Part shown: piece by piece, positions 24,073-57,640 of the stretch | Layout: each line of letters starts with the position of its first letter | Numbering within the stretch: position 1 is the first letter of the stretch | The notes under the pieces: model-generated | What the model was told of the DNA's origin: nothing | Databases searched by the model: none | The model's input: the letters and a program-made list of their open reading frames with translations, nothing else | Program-made: the position numbers and the translations under genes | Source: Williamsia sp. DF01-3 | GTDB lineage: Bacteria; Actinomycetota; Actinomycetes; Mycobacteriales; Mycobacteriaceae | Length of the DNA: 64,000 nucleotides | Direction: 5' to 3' | NCBI RefSeq assembly: GCF_023051145.1 | Contig: NZ_JALKFS010000005.1 | Span: 5,101,733-5,165,732, forward strand

Positions 24073-24147
24073 CTACCGACAACAGCTCTGGGCGCTGACG
24101 CGGCACAGATCCACCGCAAGCCGTCGCACCAGGGTCGTCGTGAACAC
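24073..24147 (-). CDS. leaderless cysteine-rich leader peptide upstream of the sulfonate operon
   Basis: A 24-codon ORF, GTG at 24147 to TAG at 24073. It ends VDLCRVSAQSCCR, with three Cys codons of which two are adjacent (TGT TGT). The RR...DLCRVSA pattern is that of leader peptides found upstream of sulfur-uptake genes in actinobacteria. A -10-like TACTGT (24154-24159 on the minus strand) ends 6 bases before the GTG, so transcription would start at the start codon and the mRNA would be leaderless. Scarce charged tRNA-Cys would stall ribosomes at the CysCys pair and could relieve termination before the permease gene. The attenuator fold in the following 151 GC-rich bases was not resolved. 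Confidence 0.75.
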   Translation of the reverse strand: MFTTTLVRRLAVDLCRVSAQSCCR

Positions 24148-50291: not shown

Positions 50292-51338
50292 GTGACCCAG
50301 CTCGGCGATAAAAGCGCTGGCCCGATGTCAGAGTCGGTGGATACGGTTACCCGCATGACAACTGCCACGGGGGCCACCGACCTAGCGATCGAAGCCATCG
50401 ACCTGGTCAAAGAATTCGACGGTGTTCGCGCCGTCGACGGAGTTAGTTTTTCAGTTCCACCGGGGTCCGTCCTGGGACTGCTCGGGCCCAACGGCGCGGG
50501 CAAGACCACCACGGTCCGCATGATGACAACACTGAGTCAGCCGACGTCGGGCACTGCTCGCATCGCCGGATATGACGTACGGGAGAACCCGGATCTCGTC
50601 CGCAGCAACATGGGCCTCACCGGTCAGGCTGCGACGGTCGACGAATTGCTCACCGGCCGCGAGAACCTGTGGATGATTGGCAGCCTCTACGGTCTTCCCC
50701 GCAAGGACGTACGCCGGTCCGGCGACCAACTGCTCGAGCAGTTCTCCCTGACCGACGCTGCGGACCGCGTGGTCAAGACCTACTCGGGAGGTATGCGCCG
50801 CCGGCTCGACCTCGCGGTCAGCCTCCTGGCCTCGCCGCCGGTGCTCTTCCTGGACGAGCCCACCACCGGCCTCGACCCGCGCAGCCGCCAGGAACTCTGG
50901 GACGTGCTGCGATCGCTGGTGAACGACGGAACCACACTGCTGCTCACCACGCAGTATCTCGAAGAGGCCGACCAGCTCGCCGACGACATCGTTGTCATCG
51001 ACAGGGGCAAGATCATTGCCGCCGGCACGCCACTACAACTCAAGGAACAGGCCGGGCAGGCCAGTCTGGTCATCACGGTCTCGCATGCCGACGATCTCGA
51101 AGAAGCCACCCGGTTGCTGCGCGAGAACAGCGGCGAGGTGTTCGTCGAGGAGTCCGCACGGCAGCTCACCGCGAGCGCCGATGGACTCGCCGACCTGACC
51201 CGGATCGCCGGGATCTTCGAACGCAGCGAGATCGCAGTCGACGACATCGGACTCACCCGCCCGAGCCTGGACGACGTCTTCCTCTCCCTCACCGGACACC
51301 GCGCCGAGGACGCCGACAACGAGGAGAACAAGTCATGA
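50292..51338 (+). CDS. DrrA-type ABC exporter ATP-binding protein
   Basis: A 348-residue ATPase of the daunorubicin-resistance DrrA family. Walker A is GPNGAGKTTTVRMM, the signature YSGGMRRRLDLAVSL, Walker B VLFLDEPTTGLDPRSRQ and the His switch TTQYLEEADQLAD. The C-terminal extension typical of the family covers about 245-340 (RPSLDDVFLSLTGH). GTG 50292 sits after AGAGGA; the first 30 residues are not conserved and a later start is possible. Its stop overlaps the permease start (ATGA). It powers export of a hydrophobic compound, not identified here. Confidence 0.92.
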   Translation: MTQLGDKSAGPMSESVDTVTRMTTATGATDLAIEAIDLVKEFDGVRAVDGVSFSVPPGSVLGLLGPNGAGKTTTVRMMTTLSQPTSGTARIAGYDVRENPDLVRSNMGLTGQAATVDELLTGRENLWMIGSLYGLPRKDVRRSGDQLLEQFSLTDAADRVVKTYSGGMRRRLDLAVSLLASPPVLFLDEPTTGLDPRSRQELWDVLRSLVNDGTTLLLTTQYLEEADQLADDIVVIDRGKIIAAGTPLQLKEQAGQASLVITVSHADDLEEATRLLRENSGEVFVEESARQLTASADGLADLTRIAGIFERSEIAVDDIGLTRPSLDDVFLSLTGHRAEDADNEENKS

Positions 51339-52189
51339 CCACCACCACCTCACCCGCCGACACCGGCCGCTCCACCCCGAAATCCGCTGCAGGCCGGCCT
51401 GATCTGGTCCGAGAATCCCTGGTCATGGTGCGGCGCAACCTGTTACACACCAAGCGCCAGCCAGAGATGCTGTCCGACGTCACGGTGCAGCCGATCATGT
51501 TCGTGCTGTTGTTCGCGTACGTGTTCGGTGCGTCGATCAGTCCTGGCTCCGGATTCGACTACAAAGAGTGGCTGTTGCCCGGCATCATGGGCCAGACCAT
51601 TGCCTTCTCTGCGTTCATCGTCGCGCTCGGCCTCACCAACGATCTGGAGAAAGGCATCATCGACCGCTTCCGGTCGTTGCCGATGGCACGCTCGTCCGTT
51701 CTGGTCGGACGTTCGGTTGCCGCGCTGATCCACTCCTCGATCGGCATCGTGGTCATGGCCATCACGGGTCTGCTCATCGGATGGCGAATCCACGAAGGCA
51801 TCGCCAAGGCCGCGTTGGCTTTTGCTCTGGTGCTCGTGTTCGGGTTCGCCATGATCTGGTTCGGCATCCTGATCGGTTCGGTGATGCGGTCGCCAGAAGC
51901 GGTCAACGGCGTGATGTTCACCTTGCTGTTCCCGATCACGTTCTTGTCCAACGCTTTTGTGCCCACAGAGCCCATGCCCACCTGGTTGCGCACCATCGCG
52001 GAGTGGAACCCGATCTCGTCGCTCGTCCAGGCGATGCGCGAATTGTGGGGCAATGGGCCGGCAGCGCCGGCCGGTGCTCCGTGGCCGCTTCAGAACCCGG
52101 AGCTCTCCACGGTGCTCTGGTCGGTGGCACTCACGCTGATCTTCGCGCCGTTCGCGTTGCGTGCTTACCGCAAGCGCACCACGGACTAG
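51335..52189 (+). CDS. DrrB-type ABC-2 exporter permease
   Basis: A 284-residue ABC-2 membrane protein with about six helices. Family segments are VQPIMFVLLFAYVFGASI, LLPGIMGQTIAFSAFIVALGL, the loop DLEKGIIDRFRSLPMARSSVLVGR, and FPITFLSNAFVPTEPMPTWL. It forms the exporter with the DrrA-type ATPase. It ends before a bidirectional terminator, facing the ROK gene. Confidence 0.92.
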   Translation: MTTTTSPADTGRSTPKSAAGRPDLVRESLVMVRRNLLHTKRQPEMLSDVTVQPIMFVLLFAYVFGASISPGSGFDYKEWLLPGIMGQTIAFSAFIVALGLTNDLEKGIIDRFRSLPMARSSVLVGRSVAALIHSSIGIVVMAITGLLIGWRIHEGIAKAALAFALVLVFGFAMIWFGILIGSVMRSPEAVNGVMFTLLFPITFLSNAFVPTEPMPTWLRTIAEWNPISSLVQAMRELWGNGPAAPAGAPWPLQNPELSTVLWSVALTLIFAPFALRAYRKRTTD

Positions 52190-52244: not shown

Positions 52245-53594
52245 TCACAGACTCCGGGACAGAGCCTCGATCGGGTCGCTGTAGATCGCATCAAGCGAAA
52301 CCGCGCCGGCGGCCTGCTGCTGCACGGTGGCACCCGACCGTGACACGCGCACGTCGCGCCGTTCGGACACGGAGGTCTCGCGAACAGCTCTGGCCACCAC
52401 GGGCAGAGTCGAAGGCGCATCCGTGAACGCCTGCCCGCCCAGGACAACGTGGTCGGGGTTGAAGATGTCAGAGATGAGGCCGACCGCACGGCCGAGTACT
52501 TCGGCCCGCTCGGTCAGGATGGCGCGGGCCACGTCGTTGCCTGCGGCAGCGAGCTGGTGCACGTCTTCGACGGTCTCGATGGTCAACCCCGCAGCGATCG
52601 CGGCGTCGACCACACCGGTGTCGCTCACGGTCGGTTCGAGGCGACCGGTGCGGTGGGGGTCGAGGAGTTCGGTGCGGCCCGCGGGGAAATGTCCGATCTC
52701 CGGCGGCCCGGCGGTGGGTGTGTACACGCTTCCACCGACTGTGAAGGCGATACCAACCGTTTCCCGGGCGTAGAAGTAGACGAAGCTGCCGCCTTCTTGA
52801 CCTGGATCGACCAGCAGTTCCGCTTGGGGGTTGAGCAGGAGTTCCGCGGCAGCCATCGCCTCGACGTGCGACGCCACCGAGATGGGCAGACCGATCACCG
52901 ACGCCAGTACTTCACCGACGGGTGCGGACTGCCAGTTCAACCGGGAATGGCTCACACGTCCGCCGTTGTCGACCCTGCCGGCCAGCGCCACCCCGGCCCA
53001 GAGCACACGCTTGTTCTGCCAGCGGGAGAGGAAACGTTTCGCGCTCAATCCGATCGACGTCAAGGTCTGCTCGGGGGTGTCGGCAGCCGGGGTCGGGATC
53101 TGGATGGCGCCCACCACGCGGTGAAACAGGTCGTGGGTGGTGATCGAGGTGACCTTGAGACCGATGTGAATGCCCACCGTCAGGTATTCGGCGGTGTTCA
53201 GCTCGAACGGGAGGCGGGGACGACCGATTGCGCCCGCAGGTGCGAGGTCGGCGCGCTCGCGCAGTAGCCCGGCCTTCAGCAGGGCGCTGACCTGACGGTT
53301 CACCGTCGAGATACTCAACCCCGATGCGGCCGATGCCGCGTCGCGGAACACCGGGCCGTGCAGCCGGGCCGCTCGCAGGACAACTGCCGCCGGTTTGGTC
53401 GACAGATGAAGCTGAGGTGTCGCGACGTGGATCCCGGCGCGGGTTCCGCCGAACTTCGCGGGCGCCTTCTGGCCGAGCGCAGGCTGCGGATGAGCGGGCC
53501 GAGCAGGCGAAGCAACCCGCGAACCAGCTAGCGCATTGGGTCGAGCGGACGGGCGAACAGGTGTTGCTATGCGGTGGTCAAGTGTTGCAGTCAT
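52245..53594 (-). CDS. ROK-family transcriptional regulator
   Basis: A 449-residue protein with a winged helix-turn-helix (about 70-115, LRAARLHGPVFRDAASAASGLSISTVNRQVSALLKAGLL) followed by a ROK sugar-kinase-like domain (about 135-430, YLTVGIHIGLKVTSITT, GVALAGRVDNGG). The N-terminal 60 residues are basic and disordered. The cysteine-rich zinc site of classical ROK kinases (CxCGxxGC) is absent, as in many ROK repressors of actinobacteria. It lies behind a cysteine leader and is divergent from ssuD-sfnG-sfnB, so it is probably the regulator of that sulfur-scavenging locus. The effector is unknown. Confidence 0.9.
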   Translation of the reverse strand: MTATLDHRIATPVRPSARPNALAGSRVASPARPAHPQPALGQKAPAKFGGTRAGIHVATPQLHLSTKPAAVVLRAARLHGPVFRDAASAASGLSISTVNRQVSALLKAGLLRERADLAPAGAIGRPRLPFELNTAEYLTVGIHIGLKVTSITTHDLFHRVVGAIQIPTPAADTPEQTLTSIGLSAKRFLSRWQNKRVLWAGVALAGRVDNGGRVSHSRLNWQSAPVGEVLASVIGLPISVASHVEAMAAAELLLNPQAELLVDPGQEGGSFVYFYARETVGIAFTVGGSVYTPTAGPPEIGHFPAGRTELLDPHRTGRLEPTVSDTGVVDAAIAAGLTIETVEDVHQLAAAGNDVARAILTERAEVLGRAVGLISDIFNPDHVVLGGQAFTDAPSTLPVVARAVRETSVSERRDVRVSRSGATVQQQAAGAVSLDAIYSDPIEALSRSL

Positions 53595-53664
53595 CGAAGG
53601 TCCTCATCGAGTTGTCGCCTCCAGGACCAACGATGGCCGGGGCGGGGAGATGTCTGAGAGAAAT

Positions 53665-53678
53665 GCCGCGAGCGCGGC
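53665..53678 (-). promoter_or_regulatory. hairpin after the cysteine leader, attenuator candidate
   Basis: GCCGC (53665-53669) pairs with GCGGC (53674-53678) around GAGC. On the minus strand it begins 8 bases after the leader stop and is followed by ATTTCTCT, which resembles a weak terminator upstream of the ROK gene. Confidence 0.4.
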
Positions 53679-53686
53679 GGTTCGGG

Positions 53687-53788
53687 TCAGGACATTCGAC
53701 AACAGAGGACACGAGCGAAAGGCAGACGACATCCCAGCGCGGTGGTCACATAGGTGACCTCCGGGATGTGGTGGCCGTTGCTCGTCAT
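53687..53788 (-). CDS. leaderless cysteine-rich leader peptide upstream of the ROK gene
   Basis: A 33-codon ORF from ATG 53788 to TGA 53687. It ends ALGCRLPFARVLCCRMS, with a Cys codon and then an adjacent TGT TGT pair near the stop. A strong promoter (TGGACA, 17 bases, TACTTT) ends 7 bases before the ATG, so the transcript would begin at the start codon and be leaderless. This is the architecture of the polycysteine short ORFs that act as cysteine-responsive attenuators in mycobacteria. The ROK gene starts 92 bases downstream after a small hairpin. The N-terminal sequence has no known similarity. Confidence 0.65.
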   Translation of the reverse strand: MTSNGHHIPEVTYVTTALGCRLPFARVLCCRMS

Positions 53789-53795
53789 GAAGGTC

Positions 53796-53824
53796 AAAGT
53801 AGCAGCGGCGCCGACACCTGTCCA
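53796..53824 (-). promoter_or_regulatory. sigA-type promoter for the leaderless cysteine leader
   Basis: On the minus strand TGGACA (53819-53824), a 17-base spacer and TACTTT (53796-53801) place the transcription start at base 53788, the first base of the leader ATG. Confidence 0.65.
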
Positions 53825-54049: not shown

Positions 54050-55228
54050 GTGTCCCTGCATTTCCACTGGTTCCTGCCGACGTATGGCGACTCACGGAAT
54101 CTGATGGCGGGTGGTCACGGTTCTGACATGTCCGGAGATCGGCCCGCCGATCTGCGTTATCTCAATCAGCTCGCCGGCGCCGCCGAGGTCAACGGATTCG
54201 AAGCCGTCCTGACGCCCACCGGCTTGTGGTGCGAGGATGCGTGGTTGTCCACCGCGATGCTGTTGGAGACAACCGACACCCTCAAGTTCCTCGTCGCCCT
54301 GCGACCGGGGCTGACCAGCCCCACCCTGTCGGCACAGATGTCGGCGACCTATCAGTGGCAGTCGAAGGGACGGCTCCTGCTCAACGTGGTCACCGGAGGT
54401 GAATCGTCGGAACAGCGCGCTTTCGGCGACTTCCTGTCCAAGGAGGCCCGGTACGAGCGTTGCGGCGAGTACCTCGACATCATCCGGCAGTTGTGGACCT
54501 CCGACGGCCCGGTGGACTTCACGGGCAAGCATCTGCGGGTCGAGGGCGCGAATCTGGCCCGCAAGCCCGACCCGCTTCCGCCGGTGTTCTTCGGGGGTTC
54601 CTCCCCGGCGGCGGGAACCGTCGCTTCCAAGTACGCCGACACCTATCTGACCTGGGGTGAAAAACCGGACGCCGTCGCCGAGAAGCTCAACTGGATCCGC
54701 GGGCTCGCCGCGGACGAAGGTCGCGAACTGTCCTACGGCATCCGGCTGCACGTGATCTCGCGGGACACCGCAGAACAGGCCTGGGCCGAAGCCGACCGGC
54801 TCCTCGGTGCACTCGACCCTCAGGTGGTCGCCGGAGCCCAGCAAAACCTCGCCCGTTCCGAATCAGAAGGACAGCGGCGGATGCTCGAACTGCATGGTGG
54901 AGGCGCCGCGTTCAGCAGCGGTACCGATGCCCGCTCGCTGGAGATCTACCCGAACCTCTGGACGGGCGTCGGTCTCGTCCGAGGCGGAGCCGGCACGGCG
55001 CTGGTCGGCTCGCACGATGAGGTCGCAGACCGTATCGCGGAGTATGCGGCTCTGGGGCTCGATCACTTCATCCTGTCCGGCTATCCCCACGTGGAAGAGG
55101 CCTACCACTTCGGAGAGGGCGTGCGCCCGAGGCTCATCCGGCGCGGCCTGCTCAGTGCCGATGACCGGGCGTCCGAGCCTGTCCGGGGAGCCTTCCTGCC
55201 GTCGTTGTCGCCGGCCGGCGCCTCCTGA
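54050..55228 (+). CDS. ssuD: FMNH2-dependent alkanesulfonate monooxygenase
   Basis: A 392-residue luciferase-fold enzyme that converts an alkanesulfonate to aldehyde and sulfite. SsuD segments include FHWFLPTYGDSRNL at the start, FEAVLTPTGLWCEDAWL, FLVALRPGLTSPTLSAQM, LLLNVVTGGE and PPVFFGGSSPAAG. A C-terminal Pro/Ala tail is beyond the usual end. GTG 54050 follows AAAGG; the open frame continues 49 codons upstream without family sequence. It is the first gene of the sulfur locus. The preferred sulfonate may be methanesulfonate (MsuD role), given the next two genes. No flavin reductase is encoded nearby. Confidence 0.92.
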   Translation: MSLHFHWFLPTYGDSRNLMAGGHGSDMSGDRPADLRYLNQLAGAAEVNGFEAVLTPTGLWCEDAWLSTAMLLETTDTLKFLVALRPGLTSPTLSAQMSATYQWQSKGRLLLNVVTGGESSEQRAFGDFLSKEARYERCGEYLDIIRQLWTSDGPVDFTGKHLRVEGANLARKPDPLPPVFFGGSSPAAGTVASKYADTYLTWGEKPDAVAEKLNWIRGLAADEGRELSYGIRLHVISRDTAEQAWAEADRLLGALDPQVVAGAQQNLARSESEGQRRMLELHGGGAAFSSGTDARSLEIYPNLWTGVGLVRGGAGTALVGSHDEVADRIAEYAALGLDHFILSGYPHVEEAYHFGEGVRPRLIRRGLLSADDRASEPVRGAFLPSLSPAGAS

Positions 55229-55301: not shown

Positions 55302-56420
55302 GTGAGCACCGAACACATCGCCGATCAGATCAAGTTCGCCTACTGGGTCCCCAACGTCAGTGGCGGCCTGGTGACCAGCGACATCGAACAGCGAACGAGC
55401 TGGGACTTCGAGTACAACAAGAAGCTCGCACAGACCGCAGAGAACAACGGCTTCGAGTACGCCCTGTCTCAGGTGCGGTACATGGCGTCCTACGGTGCCG
55501 AGTTCCAGCACGAATCAACAGCTTTCAGCCTCGCACTGTTGGGGGCGACCGAAAAGCTCAAGGTCATCGCCGCCATCCACCCCGGCCTGTGGCATCCGGC
55601 GGTGCTGGCCAAGTTCGGGGCCACCGCCGACCACCTGTCGGGCGGGCGGTTCGCCATCAACGTCGTGTCGGGATGGTTCGCCGGAGAGTTCAAGGCGCTG
55701 GGTGAGCCCTGGCTCGAGCACGACGAGCGTTACCGGAGAAGTGCCGAGTTCCTCGAGGTCATCCGCAAGATCTGGACCGAGGACAATGTCGACTACGGTG
55801 GCGACTTCTACCGGATCCGTGACTTCACCCTCAAGCCCAAGCCGCTCAACACACCCGAGCGCCCCAATCCCGAACTGTTCCAGGGAGGTAACTCCACCGC
55901 GGCCCGCAGCAACGGCGGACGTTTCGCCGACTGGTACTTCTCCAACGGCAAGGACTTCGATGGTGTCACCGAACAAGTCGACGACCTGCGTGCGGTCGCC
56001 AGGGCCCACGACCGCGAGGTGAAGTTCGGGCTGAACGGGTTCATCATCGCCCGCGACACCGAGGCCGAGGCCCGGGACACCCTCCGGGAGATCATCGAGA
56101 AGGCCAATCGTCCTGCAGTGGAGGGGTTCCGGGATTCGGTGCGACAGGCCGGCGCGTCCACCTCGGACGGCAAGGGCATGTGGGCCGAGTCGAGCTTCGA
56201 GGACCTCGTGCAGTACAACGACGGGTTCAAGACCAAGCTGATCGGCACGCCGGAACAGGTCGCCGAGCGAATCGTCGCCTACAAGCGACTCGGCGTCGAT
56301 CTGGTCCTCGGCGGGTTCCTGCACTTCCAGGAAGAGATCGAATACTTCGGTGCGAGGGTGCTGCCGCTGGTTCGTGAACTCGAAGCGGCTGACGCGGAAG
56401 CCGGCGTCGGCGCATCGTGA
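55302..56420 (+). CDS. sfnG: dimethylsulfone monooxygenase
   Basis: A 372-residue luciferase-fold flavin enzyme. The start IKFAYWVPNVSGGLVTSDIEQRT, then FEYALSQVRYMASYGAEFQHE, VIAAIHPGLWHPAVLAKFGA and NVVSGWFAGEFKALGEPWLEHDERYRRS match SfnG closely. It uses reduced flavin and O2 to turn dimethyl sulfone into methanesulfinate and formaldehyde. GTG 55302 follows TTGGAG. Its stop overlaps the next gene (GTGA). Confidence 0.92.
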   Translation: MSTEHIADQIKFAYWVPNVSGGLVTSDIEQRTSWDFEYNKKLAQTAENNGFEYALSQVRYMASYGAEFQHESTAFSLALLGATEKLKVIAAIHPGLWHPAVLAKFGATADHLSGGRFAINVVSGWFAGEFKALGEPWLEHDERYRRSAEFLEVIRKIWTEDNVDYGGDFYRIRDFTLKPKPLNTPERPNPELFQGGNSTAARSNGGRFADWYFSNGKDFDGVTEQVDDLRAVARAHDREVKFGLNGFIIARDTEAEARDTLREIIEKANRPAVEGFRDSVRQAGASTSDGKGMWAESSFEDLVQYNDGFKTKLIGTPEQVAERIVAYKRLGVDLVLGGFLHFQEEIEYFGARVLPLVRELEAADAEAGVGAS

Positions 56421-57640
56421 GCACCGCGATCGCCTCTCGCATCGACACTGCCGAGCAGGCACTGTCGGTGGCCCACGACCTGGCAGCACATTTCGCCACC
56501 GGAGCGGTGGCGCGCGATCGCGACCGCAAACTGCCCTATCGCGAGATCGATCAGCTCTCGGCCAGCGGACTGCTGGCGATCACGGTGCCGAGCCGTTTCG
56601 GTGGTGCAGATCTGCCGCCTAGCATCGTGGCCGAGGTGGTCCGCATCCTTGCGACAGCCGATCCCAACATCGCGCAGATCCCGCACAGCCACTTCGTGTA
56701 TCTGAATCTGCTTCGTCTGGCCGCTGATCCACCGCAACAGCGTGATCTCTTCGAGGCGGTGCTCGGCGGAAGCCGGATCGCGAACGCGCAGTCCGAGCGG
56801 GGCGGCAAGACCGTCGCCGACATCACCACCACGGTCAGAGCGGACCGCGGCGTGCTCCGTCTGGATGGCTCGAAGTACTACTGCACCGGATCGCTGTACG
56901 CCCATACGCTCGCCGTGCTGGCACGGCTCGACGACCCCGACCACAAGACGGGGCTCGAGCACGGCGAGTACGTGGCGTTCATCCCCGTCGACGCCGCCGG
57001 TGTCCGCATCGTCGATGACTGGAACGGACTCGGCCAACGCACCACGGGCAGCGGCACCATCACGTTCGAAGGAGTGTCCCTACGCCGCGACCAGTTGGTC
57101 GCCCGGGCTCGCGCGGTGGGCGCCCCCGCCGGGTACGGCGCGTTTGCCCAGCTGCTGCACGTGGCCATCGACGCCGGCATCGCTCGAGGAGCGCTGTCTG
57201 CCGCAACTGATTTCGTCCGAAACCGCCGTCGCCCCTGGTTCGAGGCAGGTGTCGATCGCGCCATCGACGACCCGTTGGTGATTCAACGCGTCGGCGAGTT
57301 GGCCGTGGAGGTGATCTCCGCCGAGGCAACCCTGAAGAGCGCCGGCGAGGCGGTGGACGCCACGTTCGTCGCCGAGGCCGACGCGTCAGCAGAGCGAGCC
57401 GCCGCCGCTTCGATTGCGGTGGCGACAGCGAAGATCGTTGCCGACCGGGCCTCCAACGAGGTGTCGAGCGCACTCTTCGAGGTGTCAGGAACGCGAAGCG
57501 CCGCAGCAGATCTCGGCCTGGATCACTTCTGGCGCAACGCGCGCACGCACACCTTGCACGACCCGGTGCGGTGGAAGTATCAGCACATCGGTCGTTCGTT
57601 GCTGCACGACACACCACCGCCGCTGCACGGGGTCATCTGA
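56417..57640 (+). CDS. sfnB: SfnB-family acyl-CoA dehydrogenase-like sulfur acquisition oxidoreductase
   Basis: A 407-residue flavoprotein of the acyl-CoA dehydrogenase fold, in the SfnB/DszC/MsuC branch. Family stretches are LAITVPSRFGGADLPPSIVAEV, IANAQSERGGKTVADITTTV, LDGSKYYCTGSLYAHTLAVLA and HTLHDPVRWKYQHIG near the end. The group hydroxylates organosulfur compounds with FMNH2 and O2. MsuC-type members oxidise methanesulfinate to methanesulfonate, and that step would link SfnG to the sulfonate monooxygenase. The specific assignment is inferred. It is coupled to sfnG. Confidence 0.88.
   Translation: MSTAIASRIDTAEQALSVAHDLAAHFATGAVARDRDRKLPYREIDQLSASGLLAITVPSRFGGADLPPSIVAEVVRILATADPNIAQIPHSHFVYLNLLRLAADPPQQRDLFEAVLGGSRIANAQSERGGKTVADITTTVRADRGVLRLDGSKYYCTGSLYAHTLAVLARLDDPDHKTGLEHGEYVAFIPVDAAGVRIVDDWNGLGQRTTGSGTITFEGVSLRRDQLVARARAVGAPAGYGAFAQLLHVAIDAGIARGALSAATDFVRNRRRPWFEAGVDRAIDDPLVIQRVGELAVEVISAEATLKSAGEAVDATFVAEADASAERAAAASIAVATAKIVADRASNEVSSALFEVSGTRSAAADLGLDHFWRNARTHTLHDPVRWKYQHIGRSLLHDTPPPLHGVI

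Follow-up and report, generated by a model that had tools for sequence, protein, structure and literature searches.

A leaderless-type two-cysteine leader peptide as a candidate translational attenuator of a ROK-family regulator in Williamsia and related genera

Introduction

Canestrari et al. are said to have shown in 2020 that the leaderless poly-Cys sORFs of Mycobacterium smegmatis attenuate the next gene through a cysteine-dependent ribosome speed. In translational attenuators of the ermC type, a stalled leader ribosome frees the ribosome-binding site of the next gene. The Cys sORFs of M. smegmatis are also described as cysteine-dependent attenuators in the available excerpts of a review and of later work. 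Leaderless, Cys-rich uORFs were reported upstream of Rv0485/Msmeg_0932 and of the cysA2 and nirA genes (Shell et al. 2015, PMC4633059, excerpts). The Rv0485 orthologues in M. marinum and M. bovis displayed high 5'UTR-to-CDS ratios, which the authors of that study read as transcriptional attenuation (PMC4128351, excerpts).

In Rhodococcus qingshengii IGTS8, cultures on dibenzothiophene contained 18- to 33-fold more of a ROK regulator, peg5940, than cultures on sulfate; its gene lies in divergent orientation next to those for a choline sulfatase and a TauD dioxygenase, and MshA (peg5948) was among the proteins that rose. According to the same excerpts, the strain has no homologues of several known global sulfur regulators, and a CymR/Rrf2-type protein was the first candidate (PMC8557817).

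Here, we describe a leader peptide upstream of a ROK gene in Williamsia. Since the Rv0485/Msmeg_0932 site was reported in 2015, the kind of system, and an apparently orthologous mycobacterial site, are already known. New are a peptide family that matches no Pfam or NCBIfam model, its reach, and the predicted RNA lock at the Shine-Dalgarno (SD) region of the ROK gene. No title or abstract on the present peptide outside mycobacteria was found among the literature matches listed; Canestrari 2020 may discuss the leader. We found no mention of ROK in PMC7661421, PMC9426449 and PMC11852219, and none of Rv0485 in PMC11133741. As far as the M. smegmatis poly-Cys attenuators are described in the excerpts, the Williamsia leader has in common with them a short ORF of leaderless type, contiguous Cys codons and a proposed attenuation of the next gene, but differs in having two adjacent Cys codons, a regulator as target and a proposed pairing with the SD.

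Results

The leader ORF and its start

The analyzed DNA, hereafter the window, is a stretch of 64,000 nucleotides from Williamsia sp. DF01-3. On its minus strand, the gene for a ROK-family transcriptional regulator of 449 amino acids (52245..53594; PF00480, E 2.8e-15) is preceded by a leader ORF of 33 codons, MTSNGHHIPEVTYVTTALGCRLPFARVLCCRMS (53687..53788, minus strand), with the ATG at 53788 and the stop codon TGA at 53689-53687. The codons for Cys29 and Cys30, TGT TGT, are located close to the stop (53699..53704, minus strand) and represent the presumed stall site. Reading along the minus strand, the hexamer TGGACA (53824-53819) is followed by 17 bases, the hexamer TACTTT (53801-53796), 7 bases (53795-53789) and the ATG. 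Verification of these coordinates confirmed the arrangement proposed in the first-pass annotation, including the 33-residue ORF and the CysCys pair near the stop, but to call the promoter near-ideal was an overstatement. A consensus scan detected no sigma-70-type promoter, and TACTTT matches TATAAT at three of six positions. Because TGC precedes TACTTT, the -10 element was classified as the extended type, TGCTACTTT (53796..53804, minus strand), which fits better and is located 7 nt 5' of the ATG, at leaderless spacing. The best -35-like hexamer begins with TTG and lies 16-19 nt from the -10 in 46 of 64 non-redundant orthologues; that of the window, TGGACA (53819..53824, minus strand, read from the sequence), is outside this group.

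A simple pattern scan of the window yielded just two leaderless-type ORFs with Cys pairs, the ROK leader and a leader at 24147-24073. No Rfam matches at gathering scores were obtained anywhere in the window. Of 58 leaders, 57 use TGT as the first codon of the Cys pair and one has a non-Cys codon there; the Cys codons in the long high-GC3 mechanical ORFs of the window comprise 18 TGT and 60 TGC.

The set of 64 records consists of 120 loci collapsed to distinct leader-plus-intergenic sequences, and it had been picked with a -10 requirement. The spacing was therefore recounted for distinct stretches found by the peptide alone: all of these (66/66) have TANNNT 5-9 nt before an in-frame ATG or GTG, 61 of them at a spacing of 6-7 nt and 61 with an extended TGn, as compared to 6 of 1,320 random positions in the control. 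This spacing from -10 to ATG is compatible with a start codon at the 5' end of the transcript, and a leaderless start is thus predicted.

Conservation and protein-level selection

ROK-family homologues (E up to 0.001) were identified in 55 of 61 related genomes, and most of the closer homologues were preceded by the same peptide body; 30 named loci were taken from public contigs, mostly of Williamsia and Gordonia. With an E threshold of 0.1, a peptide profile built from 16 selected leaders matched 219 of the 301 genomes from the family. By hand count, 22 of these matches were weak (E 0.006 to 0.1); the other approximately 197, spread over 19 of the 31 genera, had an E of 2e-4 or less. An order-wide sample of 249 genomes yielded 12 matches at E 0.001, all within the same family. 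In the genome of the window itself, a single match is convincing (E 2e-21), and the second best has an E of 0.07. In the fetched loci, many of which repeat, 121 of 122 peptide stretches had a ROK gene no more than 800 nt downstream; for loci fetched by the peptide profile, the count was 48 of 49 stretches. The exception (L138) is located near a contig end.

Absence of the ORF or of the Cys codons at orthologous loci would, according to the first-pass annotation, have spoken against the proposal. The pair is retained: CC was found within the last 12 residues in 58 of the 64 non-redundant leaders, and the other six have one Cys at that place (four leaders), CRMC (one) or CC farther from the end (L125). 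Thus, adjacent Cys codons near the stop and a conserved ORF before the same gene in relatives, both characteristic of leaderless Cys-uORF attenuators, were observed. In L057, L041, L109 and L127 the body is kept and one Cys replaces CysCys, which makes these leaders natural variants with which the function of the pair could be probed.

Single-base codon differences in the leader core of 58 distinct leaders were synonymous in 82.5% of cases as compared to 31% expected, and in 14% and 11% when read in the other two frames; the percentages rest on sequence pairs, so that the counts are not independent. The leader peptide is under protein-level selection. An ORF this short could be a chance ORF in the promoter region, but that explanation is refuted by the conservation in about 197 of 301 genomes, the synonymous change and the leaderless spacing in all 66 stretches, and we give it practically no credence. 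In an alignment of 16 rows, fourteen residues are invariant: eleven in the body, Met1 and CysCys. The body VTYVTxALGxRLP is conserved as protein to an extent that codon counting alone does not explain, which leaves room for a role as an arrest peptide.

Gene neighbourhood and history of the locus

In the window, the ROK gene is divergent from a gene for an SsuD-like alkanesulfonate monooxygenase (54050..55228, plus strand; NF001939, E 2.6e-131, below the cut-off; open from a GTG start placed by eye). This gene is followed on the plus strand by those for the SfnG dimethylsulfone monooxygenase (55302..56420; TIGR04021, above the cut-off) and an SfnB-family sulfur acquisition oxidoreductase (56417..57640; TIGR04022, above the cut-off). 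An SsuD-like gene was observed in divergent orientation beside the leader-bearing ROK gene in 14 loci from Williamsia and near relatives (L031-L039, L041, L056, L057, L109 and L110) and approximately 2 kb off in L102, and was not found in the other searched loci longer than 4,900 bases. An ABC transporter pair convergent to ROK (window 50292-52189, plus strand) is kept in many leader-ROK loci of Williamsia and Gordonia. One of the 14 loci, L031 (NZ_JNYV01000011.1), is titled Kitasatospora arboriphila; its ROK locus is 98% identical to the Williamsia window, with the same sfnB-sfnG-ssuD-ROK-ABC order, and the record looks mislabelled or contaminated.

Elsewhere, the leader-bearing ROK gene occupies the position murB-lprQ-SDR-ROK-mshA (L103, L104, L108, L113 and L165, from several genera, some loci being incomplete). 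The same order is kept in genome G036, taken as Mycobacterium, with a different Cys-rich leader. We take Rv0485 to be the ROK protein adjoining mshA, and this synteny agrees with that assignment. The Williamsia leader and the Rv0485/Msmeg_0932 uORF, as described in excerpts of PMC4633059, are both Cys-rich and of leaderless type and apparently have the same target gene, judged by family, synteny and the tree of homologues. They differ in that the Williamsia leader-bearing ROK gene sits by ssuD/sfnG, the SDR-adjacent paralogue being without the peptide. No copy of the peptide was found at this paralogue in nine Williamsia-genus genomes (L097, L151-L158) and the Gordonia-like L159; leaders of other kinds were looked for by eye in L097 only. 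In genome G000, the ROK paralogue at murB-lprQ-SDR (C5:1306072-1307121, corresponding to L097 8073-9122) lacks this leader, and the leader-bearing copy is by ssuD/sfnG.

All 15 loci read in genus g29, taken as Mycobacterium (L026, L176-L188 and L190), contain a leaderless-type Cys-rich ORF with other bodies, for example MIRFGLTSCLVAHTACCCHAIRCA and MLSSQACMRRACCCCRTPRRA. This search demanded a -10 and at least two Cys, and the ROK gene was present at E 1e-40 in 14 of 16 g29 genomes and in G036. Judged by the A1 profile, which gave weak or no matches in g29 genomes (best 0.013), the Williamsia body is apparently unrelated to that of the Rv0485/Msmeg_0932 uORF. Further leader bodies occur in other genera (L022, L028 and L173), and L192 and L193 retain part of the body, ALGNRLPPIRELC. 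Under the same search conditions, L027, L194 and L170 yielded no leader, and L189 contained only an unconvincing ORF.

The leaders were sorted into a V-type, with Cys in ALGCRLP (Williamsia, Gordonia and relatives), and an E-type, with RELCC and its kin. A branch (93/70) of the 51-row ROK tree separates the V-type leaders from the remaining rows, which include most of the E-type leaders. The peptide body is therefore probably ancestral, having been replaced in g29 and other genera while the Cys codons stayed.

In known arrest peptides, the key residues lie within about 20 residues before the stall site. The leader body (VTYVTxALGxRLPxxRxL) sits within approximately 20 residues before the Cys codons and could likewise work in the ribosome tunnel, either strengthening the CysCys stall or making it responsive to a sulfur metabolite and leaving the RNA switch unchanged. 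The invariant residues of the 16-row alignment, eleven of the fourteen being in the body, the mostly synonymous codon change and the fixed TGT at the first Cys codon are consistent with such a role. However, g29 and some other genera retain the Cys codons without the body, so that the body is dispensable for the basic function, and the Ms5788A family too has a profile (27 positions) longer than its Cys tract. We thus regard the arrest peptide as possible but doubtful. That the peptide is a small trans-acting protein, binding for example ROK or a thiol or metal, would agree with its conserved sequence, with the ROK gene that follows in 121 of 122 stretches and with the single convincing copy in the genome. 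It is very unlikely given that the body has been replaced in several genera, where the Cys codons and the leaderless layout stay.

Pairing between the Cys codons and the ROK ribosome-binding site

The ribosome-binding region of the ROK gene is complementary to the Arg-Val-Leu-Cys-Cys-Arg codons of the leader. In the window, the anti-SD arm consists of GTCCTC (53710-53705) and GTTGTCG (53703-53697) in the Val-Leu-Cys-Cys-Arg codons (53697..53710, minus strand), as supported by the alifold of eight Williamsia leaders and by permutation and pairing tests. The SD arm consists of CGACAAC (53617-53611) and GAGGAC (53605-53600) at the ROK ribosome-binding site (53600..53617, minus strand), as seen in the consensus fold and the window fold. 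RNAalifold of the eight Williamsia leaders gave a consensus of -29.75 kcal/mol, in which GTCCTC pairs with GAGGAC and GTTGTCG with CGACAAC and the hairpin after the stop is enclosed; these are close relatives, and the consensus has no covariation bonus (term +1.64). One MAFFT alignment of 17 Gordonia-like leaders gave no RNAalifold consensus (-0.36), perhaps due to badly aligning intergenic parts. The window segment folded with a z of -2.41, and 6 of 200 shuffles were as good. Its centroid contains GTCCTC:GAGGAC and GTTGTC:GACAAC, nearly all of the helix, whereas the minimum-energy fold contains GTCCTC:GAGGAC but pairs GTCGA (53700-53696) with TCGAT (53610-53606) instead.

Duplexes between a leader and its own SD averaged -14.05 kcal/mol in 32 V-type rows as compared to -12.28 kcal/mol when swapped, and none of 2,000 permutations was as good. 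The 17 E-type rows showed no advantage of the own duplex, with 1,323 of 2,000 permutations as good. When the leader segment was moved through 17 positions, the 35 V-type rows gave their strongest signal at Arg-x-Leu-Cys-Cys (z -4.1), with -2.3 and -2.0 at the flanks; the remaining positions ranged from z -1.3 to +3.2, some being opposite in direction. The pairing probability of Val-Leu-Cys-Cys with the SD was 0.63 on average in 41 V-type leaders and 0.85 in the window, as compared to 0.155 for shuffled intergenic DNA, and was higher for the own sequence in 39 of the leaders. Shuffled DNA also loses the SD, and the E-type rows, with no pairing signal (0.093 vs 0.092 shuffled), are the better control for that. 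The third base of the Arg codon and the base after AGGAC form 8 T:A and 6 G:C pairs among 26 typed rows. Two changes suffice to explain the T:A state on a tree with 29 rows, and with only about two independent double changes the permutation counts overstate the covariation, which we consider to be moderate evidence. The Williamsia rows do not extend this pair.

With a masked ribosome on the Cys codons, the average SD opening modelled for 32 V-type leaders increased from 0.147 to 0.37, and that for the window alone from 0.166 to 0.237. In the V-type leaders, the opening was 0.30-0.38 with the A site placed from six codons before to five codons after the first Cys, as compared to 0.14-0.17 farther upstream. 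In 17 E-type leaders, a ribosome on the Cys codon did not open the SD (0.319 for free RNA, 0.313 with the ribosome). In this model, the SD is opened to the same extent by a ribosome on the stop codon and by one on the Cys codons; that the wait occurs on Cys, as opposed to the stop codon, is something we infer.

Thus, conserved complementarity between leader codons and SD was found in the V-type leaders, including the window, but not in the 17 E-type leaders. The predicted RNA lock is supported for one part of the family, since E-type leaders have neither the pairing nor the SD opening. An extension of the Cys/SD pairing to the E-type failed in the permutation, sliding, ribosome-mask and pairing-probability tests. 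In these leaders the SD must be locked another way or not at all; weak sliding signals had a z of about -2.

The permutation test had 58 rows before identical ones were merged. Leaders without a motif of the R-x-L-C type were omitted from the permutation, sliding, ribosome-mask and pairing tests, and those more than 160 bases from ROK also from the ribosome-mask test. L075 and L114, with an uncertain ROK start, were left out of the duplex, sliding, ribosome-mask and covariation-tree tests; L075 was left out of the hairpin survey and the CATTC count below, and L075, L114 and L134 of the alifold and pairing-probability tests.

At the end of the leader, the codons CGA-ATG face a downstream CATTC in 22 of 37 V-type leaders (first 110 nt after the stop), as compared to a mean of 2.9 in mononucleotide shuffles. 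The Arg codon is CGA in all 37 leaders with Arg-Met near the end, and CGAATG with CATTC(G) could possibly form an extra stem around the stop.

The hairpin after the stop codon

A GC hairpin, GCCGC-GCTC-GCGGC (53665..53678, minus strand), starts 8 bases after the stop, and its stem is unchanged in all eight Williamsia leaders. The first-pass annotation had described it as having a T-rich trail. The stem and its position (53678-53665) were confirmed, but the sequence 3' of it, ATTTCTCTC, is a weak T trail, and a terminator role is poorly supported: one terminator-like site was found as compared to 0.4 expected, and the z of the hairpin is -0.8 in the window and -0.88 on average over 63 loci (mononucleotide shuffles). 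For these reasons, we did not retain the hairpin as a plain terminator.

In a rival explanation, the hairpin would act as a terminator or would make the polymerase pause, with translation of the leader deciding on read-through into ROK. In many leaders from Williamsia and Gordonia, the hairpin begins between +8 and +17 relative to the stop, which together with the terminator-like site and the high 5'UTR-to-CDS ratios of the M. marinum and M. bovis orthologues (PMC4128351, excerpts) would fit such transcription attenuation. However, the T trail is weak, the z is mostly 0 to -2 and the position of the hairpin is inconsistent in the E-type leaders. Moreover, a ribosome held at CysCys leaves the hairpin free to form, so that less ROK is predicted in starvation, opposite to the IGTS8 proteome if the ROK protein of that strain is the orthologue. 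We therefore consider transcription attenuation unlikely, and the better-supported switch is the one in which the Cys codons pair with the ROK SD.

Proposed mechanism

The locus is likely to control its sulfur-linked ROK regulator as a translational attenuator that responds to cysteine. Established from the sequence are the leader ORF and the selection on it, its leaderless spacing from the -10 and the complementarity of its codons to the SD region; ribosome stalling at low cysteine, the direction of control and the ROK targets would be as follows. The transcript would start at or beside the ATG of the leader. With ample Cys-tRNA, the ribosome would pass both UGU codons and depart, and the vacated Val-Leu-Cys-Cys-Arg codons would pair with CGACAAC...GAGGAC, hiding the ribosome-binding site of ROK. 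When cysteine is short, the ribosome would wait at the Cys codons and cover the anti-SD arm, and ROK would be translated. Since the Val-Leu-Cys-Cys codons are predicted to pair with the SD region, a stalled ribosome awaiting Cys-tRNA would free ROK translation, and the regulator would probably be made mainly during cysteine shortage. As a DNA-binding protein, ROK would then act on the adjoining sulfur-scavenging genes, ssuD/sfnG/sfnB in Williamsia and sulfatase/tauD or mshA elsewhere. On a plain reading, the sensing codons of the V-type branch would double as the lock. The proposed logic of freeing the SD is that of the ermC type, from which the ROK leader differs in its leaderless type, in that the signal would be a shortage of Cys-tRNA and not a drug, and in that the stall codons are inside the sequestering arm.

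A sulfatase and TauD precede the leader and ROK in L111, and L103 has TauD, leader-ROK and mshA in this order; among the searched loci longer than 2,500 bases, 20 contained a TauD homologue, repeats included. Because L111 and L103 share its sulfatase/TauD/mshA arrangement, peg5940 of IGTS8, as described in the excerpts of PMC8557817, is apparently an orthologue of the leader-bearing ROK. Both loci are E-type, in which the SD lock was not detected. That cysteine supply would set the level of the regulator, as put forward in the first-pass annotation, fits the evidence for SD sequestration and the published proteomics.

Under this reading, a regulator and not an enzyme is placed under cysteine attenuation, and an Rv0485-type ROK regulator is tied to sulfur starvation. 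ROK with its leader would be a second, concrete candidate sulfur regulator beside the CymR/Rrf2-type protein in the excerpts of the IGTS8 study (PMC8557817), and the locus offers a short predicted RNA lock whose sensing codons are the anti-SD arm. More tentatively, the leaders may form an arrest-peptide family of their own, in which a tunnel-conserved body and UGU-UGU would make the ribosome the cysteine sensor of an old and widely kept ROK, which would serve Williamsia, Gordonia, Rhodococcus and their relatives as a general switch for sulfur starvation. Rv0485 of mycobacteria would then correspond to this switch, its peptide having been renewed. One half of the SD lock in the Williamsia/Gordonia branch would consist of the stall codons, so that sensing and switching would use the same bases.

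Relation to other Cys leaders

The ROK leader peptide had no match among the NCBIfam and Pfam models at E up to 10. It is, like the Ms5788A family (NF042933), a Cys-rich actinobacterial leader, but NF042933 did not match it at E 10 or better, nor above the cut-off. The suggestion that it belongs to a family other than the RR..DLCRV type was thus supported, the first leader of the window matching NF042933 (Ms5788A) and NF042934, weakly and below both cut-offs. This other leaderless-type Cys leader, MFTTTLVRRLAVDLCRVSAQSCCR (24073-24147, minus strand), is located upstream of an apparent sulfonate-type ABC transporter, as judged by eye.
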